Source: Candidatus Methanomethylophilaceae archaeon (GTDB taxonomy: Archaea > Thermoplasmatota > Thermoplasmata > Methanomassiliicoccales > Methanomethylophilaceae). Taken from it: 64,000 bases of DNA. Each line of letters opens with the position of its first letter. The stretch's first letter is position 1. Under the pieces are notes generated by a model. That model did no database searches, was not told the origin of the DNA, and saw nothing but the letters and a program-made list of their open reading frames with translations. Shown in pieces: positions 2,155 to 10,104 of the stretch. The position numbers were made by a program, and so were the translations under genes. The DNA is taken from NCBI GenBank assembly GCA_944320495.1, contig CALUHR010000003.1, positions 124,001 to 188,000 of the forward strand. The letters run 5' to 3'.

Positions 2155-2742
2155 ATGTACGTATACATACTGGGCGGCTTCCTCGGAAGCGGGAAGACCA
2201 CCCTTCTCATGAAACTGGCATCCATGTACACCAAACGCGGCGAGAAGACCGCGCTCCTCGTGAACGAATCCGGGGAGATCGGTGTGGACGGGGCCACTCT
2301 GAAGGCACAGGGTTACGACGCCATCGAGCTGCCGAACGGATGCATCTGCTGCTCCCTCTCCGGTACCCTGCAGTCCGCCCTCAAGAACATCAAGAAGGAC
2401 ATCGACCCCGACATAATCATCATCGAGCCCACCGGACTCGCCCTCCCCCACAAGGTCAGGGAGCTCGTCAAGGTATCCATGATCGACCCGGACGACATCT
2501 TCATCATCGGAGTCGCCGACGTCCAGAGGTTCGACGACCTCGTCAAGAAGAAGGAGCAGTTCTTCAAGATGCAGATGTCCAACGCCGACTTCATCCTGAT
2601 CAACAAGAAGGACCTGGCCAGGCCCGGACAGATCGAGGAGGTCACCGGATGGCTCAACAAGGAGTTCCCCGGCAAGCCCGTGGAAGCCATCTCCGCCAAG
2701 ACCGACGAGAACATCGACAAGCTCTACGAGATGATGAGATGA
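2155..2742 (+). CDS. COG0523 (CobW/HypB-like) metal-chaperone GTPase
   Basis: A 195-residue SIMIBI GTPase of the COG0523 family, which delivers or inserts metal ions. Visible motifs are the P-loop GGFLGSGKTT (7-16), a switch region with EPTG, the metal-binding signature GCICC (about 62-66) and the guanine-specificity motif NKKD (about 143-146). It lacks the C-terminal CobW_C domain of longer relatives. Its stop overlaps the next start (ATGA) in a His-rich metal-binding gene, and a RamA-like activase follows, so it belongs to the methanol methyltransferase locus. Loading Zn into MtaB or handling Co for MtaC are plausible jobs, by inference from context only. Confidence 0.85.
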   Translation: MYVYILGGFLGSGKTTLLMKLASMYTKRGEKTALLVNESGEIGVDGATLKAQGYDAIELPNGCICCSLSGTLQSALKNIKKDIDPDIIIIEPTGLALPHKVRELVKVSMIDPDDIFIIGVADVQRFDDLVKKKEQFFKMQMSNADFILINKKDLARPGQIEEVTGWLNKEFPGKPVEAISAKTDENIDKLYEMMR

Positions 2743-3365
2743 GCGGACACGACGAGGAATGCCACTGCCACGATCACGACCATGAGCACGAGCACACCTC
2801 GCTCGACGACGCGAGCGGATGCGCGGTCGGGCTGCAGGGTAGCATCGTCGGCTGGAACGCCGATGCCGAGGCAAGGATGGCGAACGCCCTCCTGACCGTC
2901 GGGAAATGGGTCGCCCAGGAGTCCGGCTGCCTCCTCGGGCACATCAAGGCCGCCGTCGTCGACGAGAACGGCGCCGGCGTGACCCTGAACCTCACCGACC
3001 TCGACAACGGGGTCGAGCACCACGGTACCCTAGAGCCCATGGAGAAGGTGCGCTTCGCATTCATGTGCGCCGTCGTCGACGTCGACGAGCACGAGCTCAG
3101 GCACAGGATGTTCCACGCCATCGACGACACCGGCCTCGACTACGAGCTGGACGAGCACGTGGAATGCCACTGCCACGATCACGACCATGAGCATCACCAC
3201 CACGACGGGGAGTGCCACTGCCATGACCATGAGCACGAGCACGGACACGAGCACCATCATGATGGCGAGTGCCACTGCCACGATCACGATGACAAGGGCT
3301 GCTGCGAGCAGAAGCCCGCGAAGGAGGAGAAGAAATCCTTCTGGAGCAAACTCAGGAGGAAGTGA
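2739..3365 (+). CDS. His/Cys-rich metal-binding protein with ECHCHDHDHEH repeats
   Basis: A 208-residue protein not recognised as a named family. One His/Asp/Glu/Cys-rich segment lies near the N-terminus (ECHCHDHDHEHEH, about 7-19). Three related blocks (ECHCHDH followed by H/E/D runs) fill about 145-195, then a Cys pair and a Lys-rich tail. The middle (about 25-140) is a normal acidic globular domain of unknown type. Such tracts bind Zn, Ni or Co. Translation is coupled to the COG0523 GTPase by an ATGA overlap, which suggests a metal store or chaperone for that GTPase. No signal peptide is visible, so it is probably cytoplasmic. Confidence 0.8.
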   Translation: MSGHDEECHCHDHDHEHEHTSLDDASGCAVGLQGSIVGWNADAEARMANALLTVGKWVAQESGCLLGHIKAAVVDENGAGVTLNLTDLDNGVEHHGTLEPMEKVRFAFMCAVVDVDEHELRHRMFHAIDDTGLDYELDEHVECHCHDHDHEHHHHDGECHCHDHEHEHGHEHHHDGECHCHDHDDKGCCEQKPAKEEKKSFWSKLRRK

Positions 3366-3411: not shown

Positions 3412-5028
3412 ATGGCTTATGGAATATCGATTGACATCGGCACCAGCGGGAGCAGGGCGCACGCGGTCGACCTGGACAGCGGGAAGATCCTGTCCACCTC
3501 GGTCACCGAGTGCCACCCCCTCCCCGGCGCGAACATCATGGACCATCTCACGTTCTGCATCAACGTGGGGACCGAGGTGGCCCACAAGATCCTCATCGAC
3601 ACCGAGAACAAACTGATCAAGACCCTCGGCATCGACCTCAAACAGGTCGAGAAGGTCAGCATCTGCGGTAACCCCATCCAGCTCTCCCTGTTCCAGGGAA
3701 TCCCCGTGGACGACCTCGCCTTCGCCGGCGAGAACGCCCACAAGGCCAGAGGCATCACCGCGCAGAAGAGGGATGCGGGAGTGTTCTCCGCGGTCGACGT
3801 CGGACTCGAGGTCAAGGACGGCTGCGAGCTCTACGTCCCCCCTGCGATCAGGCACGAGATCGGGGCCGACGCACTCGCCATGATGTACAAGAGCGGATTC
3901 CTCGAGGACAAGCGCAACTGCCTCGTCACCGACTACGGAACCAACGCCGAGATGGCCCTGAAGATCGGGGACGACATCTATACGGGGTCCGCCGCGGCCG
4001 GACCCGCCATGGAGGGACAGTCCATCCAGTGCGGGATGCTCGCCGGACCCGGAGCCATCTCCGACCTGACCTACGACTTCCAGTGGGTCTGCCAGGTCCT
4101 GGACGACGACATCATCCCCAAGGAAGGGGACAAGGTCGACTTCGGCCTCGAGACTGTCATCCCCAACGGACCCATGCACGGCAAGGCCACCGGAATCACC
4201 GGAACCGGTGTCATCGCGGCCGTCGCGGCCGCCCTCGACCAGCACCTCTGGAGGAAGGGCAAGCTCACCACCAGCGACGGTAAGCTCCACCTCCAGGACG
4301 GCGTCTACATCGACTCCCACGACATCTCCGAGGCCATGAAGGCCATCGGAGCCATGCGCGCCGGGCACTTCACACTGCTCGAGCACGCCGGTATCAAGTT
4401 CGACGAGATGAGGGTCATGTACATGGCCGGAGCATCCGGAACCTACGTCGACGCCGTCAAGGCCAGGGACGTCGGTCTCCTCCCGCCCTCCTGCGACACG
4501 ATCTACCAGTGGGGCAACACCTCGCTCGCCATGGCCACGGACATCCTCAAGGACCCCGAGCTCCTCGACAAGCTCCAGGACATCGCCAACGGAATCAGGG
4601 CCAACCACATCATGTTCGCCGGCGACAAGATTTTCGAGCAGATCTACACCCAGGAGCTGGCCGTCTGCGACGAGGGCATGCCCATGGACATGTACAACCA
4701 GAATAACGCCATCTACGGCATCCAGGCGCTGCCCAAGCCCAGGGGGACCCCCGAGGTCCACCGCATGGTCCAGCGTGACATCCCAGATCTCGGAGAGCGC
4801 GGACTGTACATCCTCCACGACATCGGCACCGAGCTCCGCGGCCACATGGAGGGCTGCACCGGATGCAAGAAGTGCGAGAGGGAGTGCCCCGAGAACGCGC
4901 TCAAGGTCACCGACGACAAGGAGATCATCGTCCAGACCAAGAACTGCCTGGGTACCGCCTGCTACAGGTGCCAGTTCTCCTGCCCGAGCAAGGTCTACAA
5001 GTACGACAACCTCAAGCTGACCTTCTGA
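3412..5028 (+). CDS. RamA-type reductive activase of corrinoid methyltransferase proteins
   Basis: ATP-dependent iron-sulfur protein that reduces inactive Co(II) corrinoid back to Co(I) so that methyl transfer can resume. The 538 residues contain an ASKHA-type nucleotide-binding region (N-terminal GISIDIGTSGSRAHAVD and the DUF4445-like central part) and a C-terminal ferredoxin domain. That domain has one classic cluster motif (CTGCKKCERECP, about 482-493) and a second set of cysteines (CLGTACYRCQFSCP). A clear AGGAGG precedes the start. Placement beside mtaCB suggests it activates MtaC, a role played by MAP or RamA-like proteins in other methanogens. The substrate is inferred from neighbourhood. 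Confidence 0.9.
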   Translation: MAYGISIDIGTSGSRAHAVDLDSGKILSTSVTECHPLPGANIMDHLTFCINVGTEVAHKILIDTENKLIKTLGIDLKQVEKVSICGNPIQLSLFQGIPVDDLAFAGENAHKARGITAQKRDAGVFSAVDVGLEVKDGCELYVPPAIRHEIGADALAMMYKSGFLEDKRNCLVTDYGTNAEMALKIGDDIYTGSAAAGPAMEGQSIQCGMLAGPGAISDLTYDFQWVCQVLDDDIIPKEGDKVDFGLETVIPNGPMHGKATGITGTGVIAAVAAALDQHLWRKGKLTTSDGKLHLQDGVYIDSHDISEAMKAIGAMRAGHFTLLEHAGIKFDEMRVMYMAGASGTYVDAVKARDVGLLPPSCDTIYQWGNTSLAMATDILKDPELLDKLQDIANGIRANHIMFAGDKIFEQIYTQELAVCDEGMPMDMYNQNNAIYGIQALPKPRGTPEVHRMVQRDIPDLGERGLYILHDIGTELRGHMEGCTGCKKCERECPENALKVTDDKEIIVQTKNCLGTACYRCQFSCPSKVYKYDNLKLTF

Positions 5029-5209: not shown

Positions 5210-6055
5210 TCACTCCAGGACGTTCTCCTTCTCCAGCTCTTCGAGGATCCTCTTGCGGAGCGCGGTGAACTCGGGGGAGGCGCGGTCCCTGGGACGGGGC
5301 CAGCCGATCTCCACGACCTCCTTGATGGTAGCCGGGCGCTTGGTCAGGATGACGATCCTGTCCGACAGGTAGACCGCCTCGTCGACCGAGTGGGTGATGA
5401 AGATGATCGTCTGATCGGTCTTGTCCAGGATCTTCAGCAGGCCGGCCTGCATCAGGTTCCTGGTCTGGGCATCGAGAGCGCCGAACGGCTCATCCATCAG
5501 GATGACGTCGGGGTTTGTGACCATCGCCCTTGCGATGGCGACGCGCTGCTTCATCCCTCCTGAGAGCTCGTGTACCCTGTGGTCGGCGAACTTCTCCAGA
5601 CCGACGATCTTCAGGTACTTCTCGGCGCGCTCGCGGCGCTCCTCCTTGGGCATGCCGGCGATCTCGAGGCCGAACTCTACGTTCTTCCTGACGGATCTCC
5701 AGGGGAACAGGGCGAAGTCCTGGAAGACCATGCCCCTGTCCGAACCTGGTCCGGTGCACTCGCGGTCCCCGATCAGGATCTTCCCCGAGGACGGGGGGAT
5801 CAGGCCCGCCAGCATCCTCAGTATGGTCGTCTTCCCGCATCCGGAGGGGCCGACGATCGTTATGAGCTCGCCCTTGCGGATATCGAGGGAGAAGTCCTCC
5901 AGGACCACAGTCTCGGAATCCTCGGTGACGTACGTCTTGCTCAGATTCCGAATGTGAATCTGGTCCTCCCCCTCCTTGATCTCCTCGGAGGGCACGAAGG
6001 TGTCGCTCTCCACTGCTGTGCCGGCGGTTACACCGGGTTCGATCTCCTCAGACAT
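5210..6055 (-). CDS. ABC transporter ATPase, nitrate/sulfonate/taurine family
   Basis: Cytoplasmic ATPase of a SsuB/TauB-like importer, 281 residues. Visible are Walker A GPSGCGKTT, the Q-loop, the ABC signature LSGGMKQR and Walker B VILMDEPFGALD. The first 30 residues are an acidic extension ahead of the conserved domain. Its start overlaps the end of the permease gene by 8 bases, and it is the last gene of a leftward operon of binding protein, permease and ATPase. The substrate cannot be fixed from sequence; sulfonates, nitrate, cyanate and pyrimidine-like compounds are all used by family members. Confidence 0.92.
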   Translation of the reverse strand: MSEEIEPGVTAGTAVESDTFVPSEEIKEGEDQIHIRNLSKTYVTEDSETVVLEDFSLDIRKGELITIVGPSGCGKTTILRMLAGLIPPSSGKILIGDRECTGPGSDRGMVFQDFALFPWRSVRKNVEFGLEIAGMPKEERRERAEKYLKIVGLEKFADHRVHELSGGMKQRVAIARAMVTNPDVILMDEPFGALDAQTRNLMQAGLLKILDKTDQTIIFITHSVDEAVYLSDRIVILTKRPATIKEVVEIGWPRPRDRASPEFTALRKRILEELEKENVLE

Positions 6056-6872
6056 TGGACATCCCCATCCTCTTCGTAATGATCTTGTGGACGTACTCCG
6101 CGAGGCCCGTGGTGAGTATACCCAGTATCGCGATGATCACGATCGCCGCGAAGGCGTTGGGCCACAGGCCGTTGGTCGCCATGGTCGAGAGGTAGTATCC
6201 GATTCCTCCCAGCTGAGGCGCGTAGAGCTCCGCGGCCACGATACACATCCATCCTACCCCGAGACCGACCTTGACACCGTTCATCAGGTACGGGATGGCG
6301 CTCGGGACCATAACCTTGTAGAACACCTGGACCGACGACGCCCCCATCGTCCTGGCGGCGTCCATCAGGTTGGGATCGATCTTCTGCACACCGAACACCA
6401 CGTTCGTGAGCACCGGGAAGAATATGCCGATGAACACGACGAGTATGGGTCCGATGGTGTAGTCGATGGCCAGGATGAATATGGGCGCCCATGCGATCGG
6501 GGCGATAGGCCTCAGGACCTCAATTACCGGGTTGGCGAACTCCCTCACGGTCTTCGAATATCCTATGATGAGACCGAGGGGAACGGCCACGACGAGGGCC
6601 AGGAGGAATCCCAGCAGGAACGTCTTGAGACTCGATCCGATGTACTGCCAGACCGTGCGTCCGCTGGTGACCGAATCGCCGTTGACCACGAGGTCGACCA
6701 GGGCGTTCCACGTCTCCAGCGGGGTCGGGATGGCTGTCGAGTTCAGGAGGAGGGACACGTCCCACCAGGCGAACACGAAGCACACCAGCGACGTGATGGC
6801 TATCACTGCGGTCCTGAACCAGCGATGGTAGCGGTTGTTCTCATCGTAGGTCCAGTTCAATATGGTCGCCAT
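6048..6872 (-). CDS. ABC transporter permease, SsuC/TauC-like
   Basis: Integral membrane permease of the BPD_transp_1 fold, 274 residues with about six transmembrane helices. The EAA-type coupling loop that contacts the ATPase is recognisable (DAARTMGASSVQVFYKVMVP, about 157-176). It begins 10 bases after the binding-protein stop and overlaps the ATPase start, so the three are one operon. Family membership follows from the loop, the length and the SsuB-like partner; the transported compound is unknown. Confidence 0.9.
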   Translation of the reverse strand: MATILNWTYDENNRYHRWFRTAVIAITSLVCFVFAWWDVSLLLNSTAIPTPLETWNALVDLVVNGDSVTSGRTVWQYIGSSLKTFLLGFLLALVVAVPLGLIIGYSKTVREFANPVIEVLRPIAPIAWAPIFILAIDYTIGPILVVFIGIFFPVLTNVVFGVQKIDPNLMDAARTMGASSVQVFYKVMVPSAIPYLMNGVKVGLGVGWMCIVAAELYAPQLGGIGYYLSTMATNGLWPNAFAAIVIIAILGILTTGLAEYVHKIITKRMGMSNV

Positions 6873-6882
6873 TATGCCACCT

Positions 6883-8133
6883 TCAGCTCGGGATCAGGGA
6901 ACCGTTGATGACAGCGGTCGTTATGGGTGGGGCTCCGACGAATCCGAACACGACCTCTCCGTTCTGCAGGGAGGTCGCCACGCCGCCGCCGTTGGAGGCG
7001 CTGCTGACCTCGACGTTGATGCCGTACTCCTCGTAGAATCCCTTCTCTATGCCAAGGTGGATGGCGATCTGGTGGATATCTCCGGCGATGACTCCGACCC
7101 TGACGGTGGACATCGAGTACCCGGACTCACTCTTCTCGTAGTCCAAGGCCTTGGCGAGATATCCGCCATTGACGTACCTCTGCGCGAACTCGTACGTGTC
7201 GCTGAATCCCTGCCTCTCGACGGAACCGGCGAGTCCGAGGTTGTCTACGAGATCCGCCACGGCGTCCTCGAGGCTGGCAAGGGGCTTGTCCGCGGTGTCC
7301 CCGAGGGACGCGTCGTTCCCGTACACGTAGTTCACGGAATCCAGGGACGCCTCGATGACGGCGCGGTTGGAGATCCCGGTCCTGTCCATGGCGAGCTGCA
7401 CCAGCTCGGCGTACTCCTCGGAGGACTTGTCGGCGATGGCGTTGTTGACCCAGTCGACGGACTTGATGTATCCGGCGAGGAACCTGACGGTTATGTCGGA
7501 GTTGGAGGTTATGAACTCATGGGAAGCGCCGATGACGCAGCAGGTGTGTCCGGGGTCGTAGTCGGCGGAGGTCATGAGGGACACGCATGGACGGACGGTG
7601 CTCTCGAGCATCGCCTGGTACTGGGGCTGCCAGATGATCCCTCCGTCGAGCTGGGGGGAGTTCTCGAAGGCCGCGGCGTTGGTGATGCTGTCGTTGTAAT
7701 AGACGATGCCGCATCCCGGGGAGGTGTTGGCCCCGGTGGTGTACAGCATGAAACGGAGGCCCATGCTCTCGACTATGCTCTTCAGTTGAACGTGTTGGAT
7801 GGTCGTCGGTCCGGGGGTGCCGAAGATCTTGCCCTCCCAGAAATCAGGATGGTACGTGATCGTGCCGTCCTCGCCGATCAGCGGGGTCCCGTCGCTGTCG
7901 ACATCGATGAAGTCGCTTGCGCTGTACTTGTCGTCGATATAGATTCCAGACCCTTCCGTGTTGACACGGGCTATGAGGTTGATCTCCTTGTCATCGTTAT
8001 CCTGATTGTAGAACATGACCAGGATGGAAGAGGAGAGCAGGAACGCGACCACGATGGCCGCAGTGAGTACTACCTTCTTGTCCAGGGTATCCTCCTTCTG
8101 GAAGTAAACAAACGTTGTTTGATATTTAACCAT
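6883..8133 (-). CDS. Membrane-anchored NMT1/SsuA-type binding protein, apparently circularly permuted
   Basis: Substrate-binding protein of the adjacent importer. A hydrophobic anchor spans about residues 20-44. The order of family segments is unusual. Residues from about 52 start with ARVNTEGSGI, which in ordinary family members follows the first lobe half. The usual N-terminal segment (VRVGVIAGDIHQIAIHLGIE, then ENGEVVFG-like and VGAPP motifs) sits at the very end, about 341-416. The protein stops at NGSLI, exactly where the N-terminal part would join. Start choice: a TATA-like box (GGTTAAATATC, about 8121-8131) overlaps the first ATG, while AGGAGG at 8091-8096 sits 5 bases before a CTG codon at 8085. 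The working start may therefore be CTG. Confidence 0.85.
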   Translation of the reverse strand: MVKYQTTFVYFQKEDTLDKKVVLTAAIVVAFLLSSSILVMFYNQDNDDKEINLIARVNTEGSGIYIDDKYSASDFIDVDSDGTPLIGEDGTITYHPDFWEGKIFGTPGPTTIQHVQLKSIVESMGLRFMLYTTGANTSPGCGIVYYNDSITNAAAFENSPQLDGGIIWQPQYQAMLESTVRPCVSLMTSADYDPGHTCCVIGASHEFITSNSDITVRFLAGYIKSVDWVNNAIADKSSEEYAELVQLAMDRTGISNRAVIEASLDSVNYVYGNDASLGDTADKPLASLEDAVADLVDNLGLAGSVERQGFSDTYEFAQRYVNGGYLAKALDYEKSESGYSMSTVRVGVIAGDIHQIAIHLGIEKGFYEEYGINVEVSSASNGGGVATSLQNGEVVFGFVGAPPITTAVINGSLIPS

Positions 8134-8337
8134 TAGAGGAATTGATTTTACAATCAGGATAATTCAATATTCGTGATGTCCCCTTCCGATTGAACATCCA
8201 GAGGTGATCGGATGTGGACGGGGACATCGGCATGAGGTCCGGGAGATATGACCGCATTCCGCGTGCGATTCCTGATTGGGTGAAATCCGGATGTGGATAA
8301 CGGTCGGGATGACAGGAACTTGTGGAAGCTGTATGAC

Positions 8338-8353
8338 GGGGCCTTACGGCCCC
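8338..8353 (-). terminator. Terminator after the SpeD-like gene
   Basis: GGGGCC-TTAC-GGCCCC stem-loop 14 bases beyond the leftward stop codon. Between 8134 and 8337 I see only promoter sequence for the leftward binding-protein gene and no reading frame of interest. Confidence 0.6.
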
Positions 8354-8366
8354 TGTTTCAGCGGGA

Positions 8367-8801
8367 TCAGATGTCCCTGAAGAGCGTCGCGTACTGCATG
8401 CGCTCGGCGCCGAAGTACTCCTTGCAATACTCCGCCGTGGCCTCCGGAGGAAACTCCCTGCAGGAGAACACGTCTATGAACGCCCGGTCCGTGTCCTCGG
8501 CGAAGTGCCCTGCTATGCAGGACGTCTCGATCAGCTGCACCAGGGAGTAGCCCTCGACCTTCGGCTCCGCACCGAACCTGACGACGACGGGGTCTCCGAA
8601 GCGCTTCATCCTGATGTGATCCGCGAGGTCGATGGCGAACTGCCTGATGTAGTCGCCGTCGCAGATCTTCTGGTGGTCGCACCCGCCAAGATCAACGGCC
8701 ACGTGGAGACCCCAGTGGTTCTCATCGCCGTATTTCCTGATGGACTCCTCATCCGTGAGGAGTGGTCCCGAATAGGGGCTCATGCTGTACATGTCAAACA
8801 C
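8367..8801 (-). CDS. SpeD/AdoMet-decarboxylase-like protein with altered cleavage site
   Basis: A 144-residue protein resembling short class 1B S-adenosylmethionine decarboxylases. It has an early GLHVAVDLGGC strand, a central GYSLVQLIETSCIAGHF that aligns with the GVSGxxxxxESHxxxH processing region, and DVFSCREFPPEATAEYCKEYFG matching the DVFTCG segment. In classic enzymes a Glu-Ser bond self-cleaves to form the pyruvoyl cofactor. Here the Glu is followed by Thr-Ser, so normal processing is doubtful. The gene stands alone between a terminator and a divergent promoter. It could be a SpeD paralogue with a new activity or a non-catalytic relative; polyamine biosynthesis should not be assumed. 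Confidence 0.65.
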   Translation of the reverse strand: MFDMYSMSPYSGPLLTDEESIRKYGDENHWGLHVAVDLGGCDHQKICDGDYIRQFAIDLADHIRMKRFGDPVVVRFGAEPKVEGYSLVQLIETSCIAGHFAEDTDRAFIDVFSCREFPPEATAEYCKEYFGAERMQYATLFRDI

Positions 8802-8991
8802 CTGCGGTTTAACCGCGGATGGACGAACGGGGAACCCTACTTGAAACCGACCCTACCCCATGTCTCGTAAGAGATAATCGGAGGCCAGTGTTGTCTCCCA
8901 CGTGTCATCCGTTCGGTCCAGGAGACAGCCCGACGGACATCCCGCCGGGCGGGAGCGAACCGTAATATCGGGATATCCAGTTGACTATGGT

Positions 8992-10104
8992 ATGAATCCC
9001 CCGAAGGTCTACTACACATCCATGCGGTGCGAGGTCGGAGACAGCCTCCTGGACAAGCTGGAGAGACTGGTCCGCGCGGCCGGCATCGAGGACATCGACA
9101 TGGACCGCAAGTTCGTGGCCATCAAGACCCATTTCGGCGAGTACGGCAACCTCTCGTACCTCAGGCCGAACTACGCCAAGACCATAGCGGACATCGTGAA
9201 ACTCCAGGGGGGCATACCTTTCCTCACTGACTGCAACACCCTGTACGTGGGCAAGAGGAAGAACGCCATCGAGCACATGGACACCGCCAACCTCAACGGG
9301 TTCTCCCCGATGTCCACGGGATGCCAGATTGTGATCGCCGACGGCCTGAAGGGCGACGATGACGTCGAGATTCCCATCGACGGGGAGTACGTGAAGAACG
9401 CCAAGATCGGACGCGCCATCGCCGATTCCGACGTCATCATCACTCTCAGCCACTTCAAGTGCCACGAGCAGACCGGGTTCGGCGGCGCCCTCAAGAACCT
9501 GGCCATGGGGTGCGGATCCCGCAGGGGGAAGATGGAGATGCACTCCGCCGGGAAGCCGTGCGTCGATGCCGAGAAGTGCAGGGGCTGCGGGAAGTGCATG
9601 CAGTTCTGCGCCGCCGATGCCATAGAGATGGTCGACCGCAAGGCGGAGATCGTCGAGGACAGGTGCGTCGGGTGCGGGAGATGCGTGAGCGCCTGCCCGT
9701 TCGACGCCGTGGAGGCGTTCATGGACCAGAAGTTCGACATAGTGAACGCCAAGATCGTCGAGTACGCCATGGCCGCGACCAAGGGGAAGGAATGCTTCCA
9801 CATCAGCGTCATCTGCGACGTGTCCCCGTTCTGCGACTGCCACGGCGAGAACGACGTGCCAGTGGTTCCGGACGTGGGCATACTCGCATCCACGGACCCC
9901 GTGGCCCTCGACAGGGCGAGCGTCGATCTGGTGCAAAAGCAGCAGATCATTCCCGGGTCCCGCCTCTGGGACAACTGCAGCGGGAGGAGGCCATCGGACC
10001 TCCTGACGTGCAACCAGCCCGCCACCAACTGGATGTCCACCTTCGAGCACGCCGCAAAGATGGGATTCGGCAGCTCCGAGTACGAGCTCGTGGAAGTGAG
10101 ATGA
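8992..10104 (+). CDS. DUF362 protein with two [4Fe-4S] ferredoxin motifs
   Basis: A 370-residue iron-sulfur protein: DUF362 segments before and after (about 25-175 and 265-345) and a ferredoxin insert at about 185-245 with CRGCGKCMQFC and CVGCGRCVSACP. DUF362 proteins are common in anaerobes and methanogens, and their biochemical role is unknown. An upstream in-frame ATG at 8902 exists, but the start at 8992 (MNPPKVYYTSM) matches the family N-terminus better. The stop overlaps the next start by ATGA, pairing it with a PQ-loop membrane protein. Confidence 0.85.
   Translation: MNPPKVYYTSMRCEVGDSLLDKLERLVRAAGIEDIDMDRKFVAIKTHFGEYGNLSYLRPNYAKTIADIVKLQGGIPFLTDCNTLYVGKRKNAIEHMDTANLNGFSPMSTGCQIVIADGLKGDDDVEIPIDGEYVKNAKIGRAIADSDVIITLSHFKCHEQTGFGGALKNLAMGCGSRRGKMEMHSAGKPCVDAEKCRGCGKCMQFCAADAIEMVDRKAEIVEDRCVGCGRCVSACPFDAVEAFMDQKFDIVNAKIVEYAMAATKGKECFHISVICDVSPFCDCHGENDVPVVPDVGILASTDPVALDRASVDLVQKQQIIPGSRLWDNCSGRRPSDLLTCNQPATNWMSTFEHAAKMGFGSSEYELVEVR

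Follow-up and report, generated by a model that had tools for sequence, protein, structure and literature searches.

The window, a 64,000-nucleotide stretch from a Candidatus Methanomethylophilaceae archaeon (source genome G000; 1.77 Mb, 14 contigs), opens within a cluster of methanol genes. The 5' part of mtaB, encoding the methanol:corrinoid methyltransferase, occupies positions 3–893 of the minus strand (PF12176, 405 bits) and continues beyond the window start, the complete gene lying at G000:C3:123463-124848. It is preceded on the same strand by mtaC (863–1648), encoding a methanol-specific corrinoid protein with B12-binding domains that scores 277 bits against NF040669, below the equivalog cut-off of 450. 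A divergent intergenic region of 506 bp (1649–2154) separates mtaCB from three plus-strand genes: a short COG0523 (G3E) GTPase of 195 amino acids (2155–2742), a His/Cys-rich partner of 208 amino acids (2739–3365) that overlaps the GTPase gene by an ATGA junction, and, 46 bp 3' of the partner gene, a RamA-type corrinoid reductive activase (3412–5028), which exceeds the subfamily cut-off of TIGR04270 (724 bits versus 500). Because mtaCB is divergent from the pair, the pair could be cotranscribed with ramA, but mtaCB could not be part of such an operon. All of the features named by the first-pass annotation, mtaCB, a GTPase with a GCICC motif, a coupled His-rich protein and RamA, were thus found. 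Further along, on the minus strand, are genes for an ABC transporter ATPase (5210–6055; PF00005, 128 bits), which by synteny is a recurrent neighbor of the pair, a permease (6048–6872; PF00528, 70 bits), a substrate-binding protein of the CmpA/NrtA/SsuA type (6883–8133) and, upstream of the latter gene, an AdoMet-decarboxylase-like protein (8367–8801; PF02675, 81 bits). G000 has a single GTPase-partner pair; a second COG0523-like match in this genome (L147) is a separate HypB-like gene and not another pair. We also rejected a 341-amino-acid reading frame starting at 2340 as a mechanical over-extension, as the -4 (ATGA) partner start is retained in 97 of the 104 homologous loci read, a count that includes some duplicate fetches.

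The GTPase matches PF02492 over residues 3–169 with 136 bits (cut-off 20.7), which places it in the COG0523/CobW-HypB-UreG group. The GCxCC metal motif lies between the GTPase motifs, as GCICC in the window and as GC[IV]CC in 58/58 sampled GTPases. CobW_C (PF07683), the C-terminal domain of a canonical full-length COG0523 protein, was not found in its 195 residues. The model for a CobW-related selenoprotein family, NF041053, describes a similarly short form and aligns over almost all 195 positions, but the score of 101.8 bits is below its equivalog cut-off of 180 and the window motif has Cys rather than Sec. Scores were also below cut-off for the CobW cobalt chaperone (TIGR02475, 92.7 bits versus 332), the ZigA zinc chaperone (NF038288, 66.7 versus 600) and the HypB nickel chaperone (TIGR00073, 38 versus 121). 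The sole relative of the GTPase found in the PDB was E. coli YjiA. A tree of 58 GTPase homologs resolved three groups, A (containing the window GTPase), B and C, with bootstrap support not fully settled.

The partner contains 34 His and 13 Cys in four ECHCHDHD-type blocks, one near the N-terminus (ECHCHDHDHEHEH, 2757–2795) and three in a C-terminal tail (3162–3365). The first-pass annotation had described it by these His-rich repeats, which are present, but repeats are not all there is to it: between the blocks lies a conserved core of ~120–121 amino acids (2799–3161) with a GHIK and an EHHG-type motif, and in an alignment of class A cores GHIK, G-V-E-x-H-G and others are invariant. Neither Pfam nor NCBIfam models gave anything credible for partners of classes A, B or C, the PF07683 model matched none of 15 class A cores and none of 4 full-length partner proteins, and a partner profile matched no PDB sequence up to E = 10. 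Structure was more informative about what the earlier annotation had overlooked, namely that the His-rich protein resembles the detached C-terminal domain of a COG0523 protein. An AF2 model of the core had a mean pLDDT of 92.7 and the order b-a-b-b-b-b-a-b, with one middle strand short. Searching this model against 350,542 PDB chains with Foldseek returned YjiA entries at ranks 1, 2 and 10; the raw E of 0.03 is weak by itself, and the likeness is persuasive because of its rank and because YjiA belongs to the same COG0523 family as the product of the adjacent gene. The match appears to fall in the C-terminal domain of YjiA.

A first hhalign comparison of class A cores with CobW_C was not significant. 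A profile of A, B and C partner cores, compared with CobW_C of 12 bacterial COG0523 proteins, scored 21.6, a value reached by 0/200 column shuffles (maximum 15.9); the alignment spans most of the domain and sets GHIK opposite RVKG/RAKG. As hhalign's own probability was only 7%, we refer to the partner as a probable remote homolog of CobW_C and not as a CobW_C member. Fold rank and shuffle controls together make such remote homology of the core probable.

Pairing of the two genes was the rule. Of 147 Methanomassiliicoccales genomes, 139 had the GTPase and 129 the partner, and 102 of the 106 core matches found with the window sequence lay within 400 bp of a GTPase match, which excludes chance pairing. 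Outside this order the partner core had no match among the 390 Thermoplasmatota genomes searched. PF07683 passed its cut-off in only 1 of the 147 genomes and matched weakly in 1 more, leaving 145 with no match. Thus, given a GTPase that lacks CobW_C, an order nearly devoid of CobW_C and a partner that resembles it, we conclude that the GTPase and partner are probably one COG0523 protein split in two. A PF07683 search of M. acetivorans likewise gave no match, which is compatible with the mta-linked COG0523 genes being split there too. The sole above-cut-off match in the order, at G031:C1:1061317-1061661, is possibly a recent transfer.

Partner tails vary. In host-associated lineages they contain a great deal of His (median 39 His), and His-rich N-termini occur in the partners of L135, L138, L149 and L150. 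In L083, L075 and L102 the His-rich stretch is followed by an additional, degenerate core, which in L083 is without GHIK. A near-identical metagenome-assembled genome (L092) encodes a partner 19 amino acids shorter than that at 2739–3365, with part of the His/Cys tail missing, through either repeat-number variation or an assembly effect. The best match in a viral library was an unnamed entry, A0A411CW79 (310 amino acids, E = 7e-4).

The first-pass annotation had proposed co-occurrence with mtaB as a check on a link to methanol use. The pair was not equally common without mtaB: of 74 high-quality genomes, 55 combine the class A pair with mtaB, 6 have the pair without mtaB, 2 have mtaB without the pair and 11 lack both (Fisher p = 2e-7, a value that is too small because the genomes are related). 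Agreement within a genus is the stronger point. In genus g30, four genomes (G138, G141, G143 and G146) have both pair and mtaB and six (G137, G139, G140, G142, G144 and G145) have neither. For three of the six pair-only genomes (G057, G119 and G122) mtaC adjoins the pair at a contig end, and for G136 the contig stops just beyond RamA; these contig-edge adjustments were made post hoc, after the co-occurrence table was known. Over all 147 genomes 18 were pair-only, including further contig-edge cases. G034, which is 99% complete in one contig and has the pair without mtaB or an mta-linked RamA, is a genuine exception, as is G024.

We mapped neighbors by tblastn with named references, because gene calls from two simple ORF finders could not be trusted in these GC-rich loci. 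In deep families (L081, L108-L110) the GTPase, partner and RamA genes adjoin mtaBC, the GTPases cluster together, and the His tails are short or absent; His-rich tails are therefore not essential to the mta context. In Methanomethylophilaceae the pair often adjoins an ABC operon encoding the AdoMet-decarboxylase-like protein, substrate-binding protein, permease and ATPase. Within 5 kb on each side of 22 non-redundant loci, an ABC ATPase was found in 15, RamA in 12 and mta genes in 10, proportions that are not population estimates, the loci having been picked partly to study exceptions. At least 8 sampled loci have the pair and the ABC operon without RamA or an mta gene, and the pair is co-directional with the operon in L066, L073, L079, L080 and L082. 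A lone GTPase for which no partner was detected still lies by mtaBC in L105, L106 and L111-L113. At G078:C1:1190338-1190916 a GTPase homolog adjoining mtaB has one in-frame TAG; the order is known for pyrrolysine.

Paralogous pairs have neighborhoods of their own. Some class B pairs share an operon with genes for a corrinoid protein and a UROD methyltransferase, and others adjoin RamA and MtaA (L142; MtaA, 305 bits); individual examples (L135, L139, L146 and L149; L142 and L143) have corrinoid-protein, UROD-methyltransferase and hydantoinase-like genes nearby, or RamA alongside. Class C pairs are located away from methyltransferases; their neighbors, identified only by eye, are a topoisomerase-like gene and a NikR-like regulator. 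The earlier suggestion of a metal-delivery step dedicated to methanol therefore holds insofar as we see a conserved pair with metal-binding signatures whose occurrence follows that of mtaB; its exclusivity does not, given G034, the ABC loci and the paralogous pairs.

That the pair handles metal we regard as very likely. With moderate confidence we place its client within the cobamide methyl-transfer system, and, slightly less firmly, we favor a reading of the pair as a split metallochaperone, probably for zinc, that serves cobamide-dependent methyltransferases, with MtaB as the one at the window locus. Delivery of zinc to MtaB in particular is a more tentative proposal. Zinc is favored because MtaB and MtaA are Zn-dependent, as cited in PMC2770081, and because a Methanosarcina COG0523 is predicted there to be ZntR-regulated. 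In the mechanism we propose, the GTPase subunit would supply nucleotide binding and the GCICC metal site, and metal, probably Zn(II), would be buffered by the His/Cys tails of the partner. By docking on the GTPase where CobW_C normally sits, the partner would complete a unit that corresponds to a full-length COG0523 protein. The GTP-bound state would then load metal, and hydrolysis would hand it to Zn-dependent methyltransferases; at the window locus the recipient would be MtaB, with RamA reactivating the corrinoid of MtaC. We also entertain, more speculatively, a broader scheme in which Methanomassiliicoccales have, as their standard COG0523, a two-protein form not described before, whose C-terminal domain was freed as a metal-buffer subunit. 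This form would have diversified into several pairs, those in corrinoid methyltransferase clusters metallating their own methyltransferase and the methanol pair being also recruited to an ABC uptake system.

The main broad rival to a methyltransferase-directed chaperone is a general zinc (or nickel) buffer and acquisition module that, with the neighboring ABC transporter, handles metal cell-wide, its placement by mta genes reflecting high zinc demand and no specific client. The 15 of 22 sampled loci with the pair less than 5 kb from an ABC operon, 8 of them lacking RamA and mta genes, would fit such a module, as would the five co-directional arrangements, the retention of the pair alone in G034 and the very His-rich tails of host-associated lineages. 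We nevertheless consider it rather unlikely: the deep families have the mta/RamA link and no ABC link, the substrate-binding protein resembles binders of bicarbonate, nitrate and sulfonate and not known metal binders, and the way the pair comes and goes with mtaB inside genera speaks for a connection with methanol use. The main specific rival is that the pair, working with RamA, loads cobalt or finished cobamide onto MtaC-type proteins, in the manner of MeaB with methylmalonyl-CoA mutase. Corrinoid proteins and RamA are indeed among the neighbors in class A and class B loci, and the family member CobW is a Co(II) chaperone (PMC10206600). Against this, a GCxCC motif together with His/Cys tails suggests free metal ions and not a corrinoid, the scores of MeaB-type models fall far short of cut-off (MeaB/lao, 24 bits versus 241 for a class B GTPase), and for cobalt insertion the order already has the anaerobic corrin pathway and cbiOMQN (PMC10804542). 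We judge this loading role less probable still.

A further alternative concerns the partner itself, which could be an unrelated His-rich metal-storage protein that is merely an operon-mate of a stand-alone short GTPase. Such a protein would explain the failure of PF07683 to match and the marginal sequence similarity to CobW_C. It would sit poorly with a core that is conserved even where the tails are nearly gone (L081, L108-L110), with a near-universal ATGA overlap, with YjiA as the top fold match and with the clear shuffle test, and of the alternatives weighed here we find it the least plausible. The split metallochaperone is our preferred interpretation.

A link between COG0523 and methanol genes is already known. 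The clustering of COG0523 with mtaA/B/C/ramM, together with the zinc idea, was published for other methanogens by Haas et al. 2009 (PMC2770081), who also report that cells grown on methanol contained a COG0523 and state that the C-terminal domain is present in most COG0523 proteins. Among the closest described systems is their subfamily 13, in which the genes clustered with an archaeal COG0523 are likewise mtaB, mtaC and one for a RamM/RamA activase, and for which zinc is proposed. The accessible part of that paper mentions no second gene, split architecture or separate GHIK partner, and names no Methanomassiliicoccales genome. The first-pass annotation had called the metal-delivery step uncharacterized. 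This is right as to biochemistry, in that we found no study of the pair genes in the open PMC literature, but too strong as to the mtaA/B/C/ramM clustering and the zinc proposal, which date from 2009. What we describe as new is the split two-gene architecture, of which we found no earlier account, together with the co-occurrence of the pair with mtaB and the indications that it is not confined to serving MtaB.

Compared with Zn-binding COG0523 proteins of the YjiA/YeiR type, the pair shares the GCxCC GTPase domain, a His-rich stretch between or after the domains and, in the partner, a probable CobW_C-like fold, but here these are distributed over two separate proteins, a GTPase of ~195 amino acids and a partner that the PF07683 model does not reach. 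In UreG/UreE and HypB/HypA, too, a G3E GTPase has a separate metal-binding partner; these systems offer an analogy in how the pair may work, although the GTPase subfamily differs and the partner fold is unrelated.

COG0523 metallochaperones are widespread, and few have a known client. A pair that tracks one zinc enzyme, MtaB, and whose halves are separate genes would make the GTPase and metal-buffer roles separable for testing. It also bears on the supply of metal to methyltransferases, the entry step of energy metabolism in methyl-reducing gut methanogens.

The ABC genes neighboring the pair have features of their own. The set at 5210–10104 of the window (AdoMet-decarboxylase-like protein, substrate-binding protein, permease, ATPase and a nearby DUF362 ferredoxin gene) recurs across Methanomethylophilaceae. 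We considered and rejected its assignment to the SAO organometal system, as the SaoA and SaoX models match below cut-off (269 versus 360 and 22 versus 300, respectively). The substrate-binding protein looks circularly permuted: a piece of the SsuA profile corresponding to the C-terminal part matches residues 152–241 and a piece of NMT1 corresponding to the N-terminal part matches residues 343–411, an order reversed from that of the profiles. An AF2 model searched with Foldseek gave CmpA, NrtA and SsuA as the nearest folds, and relatives of the protein retain both the permuted domain order and an invariant H-x-C-C.
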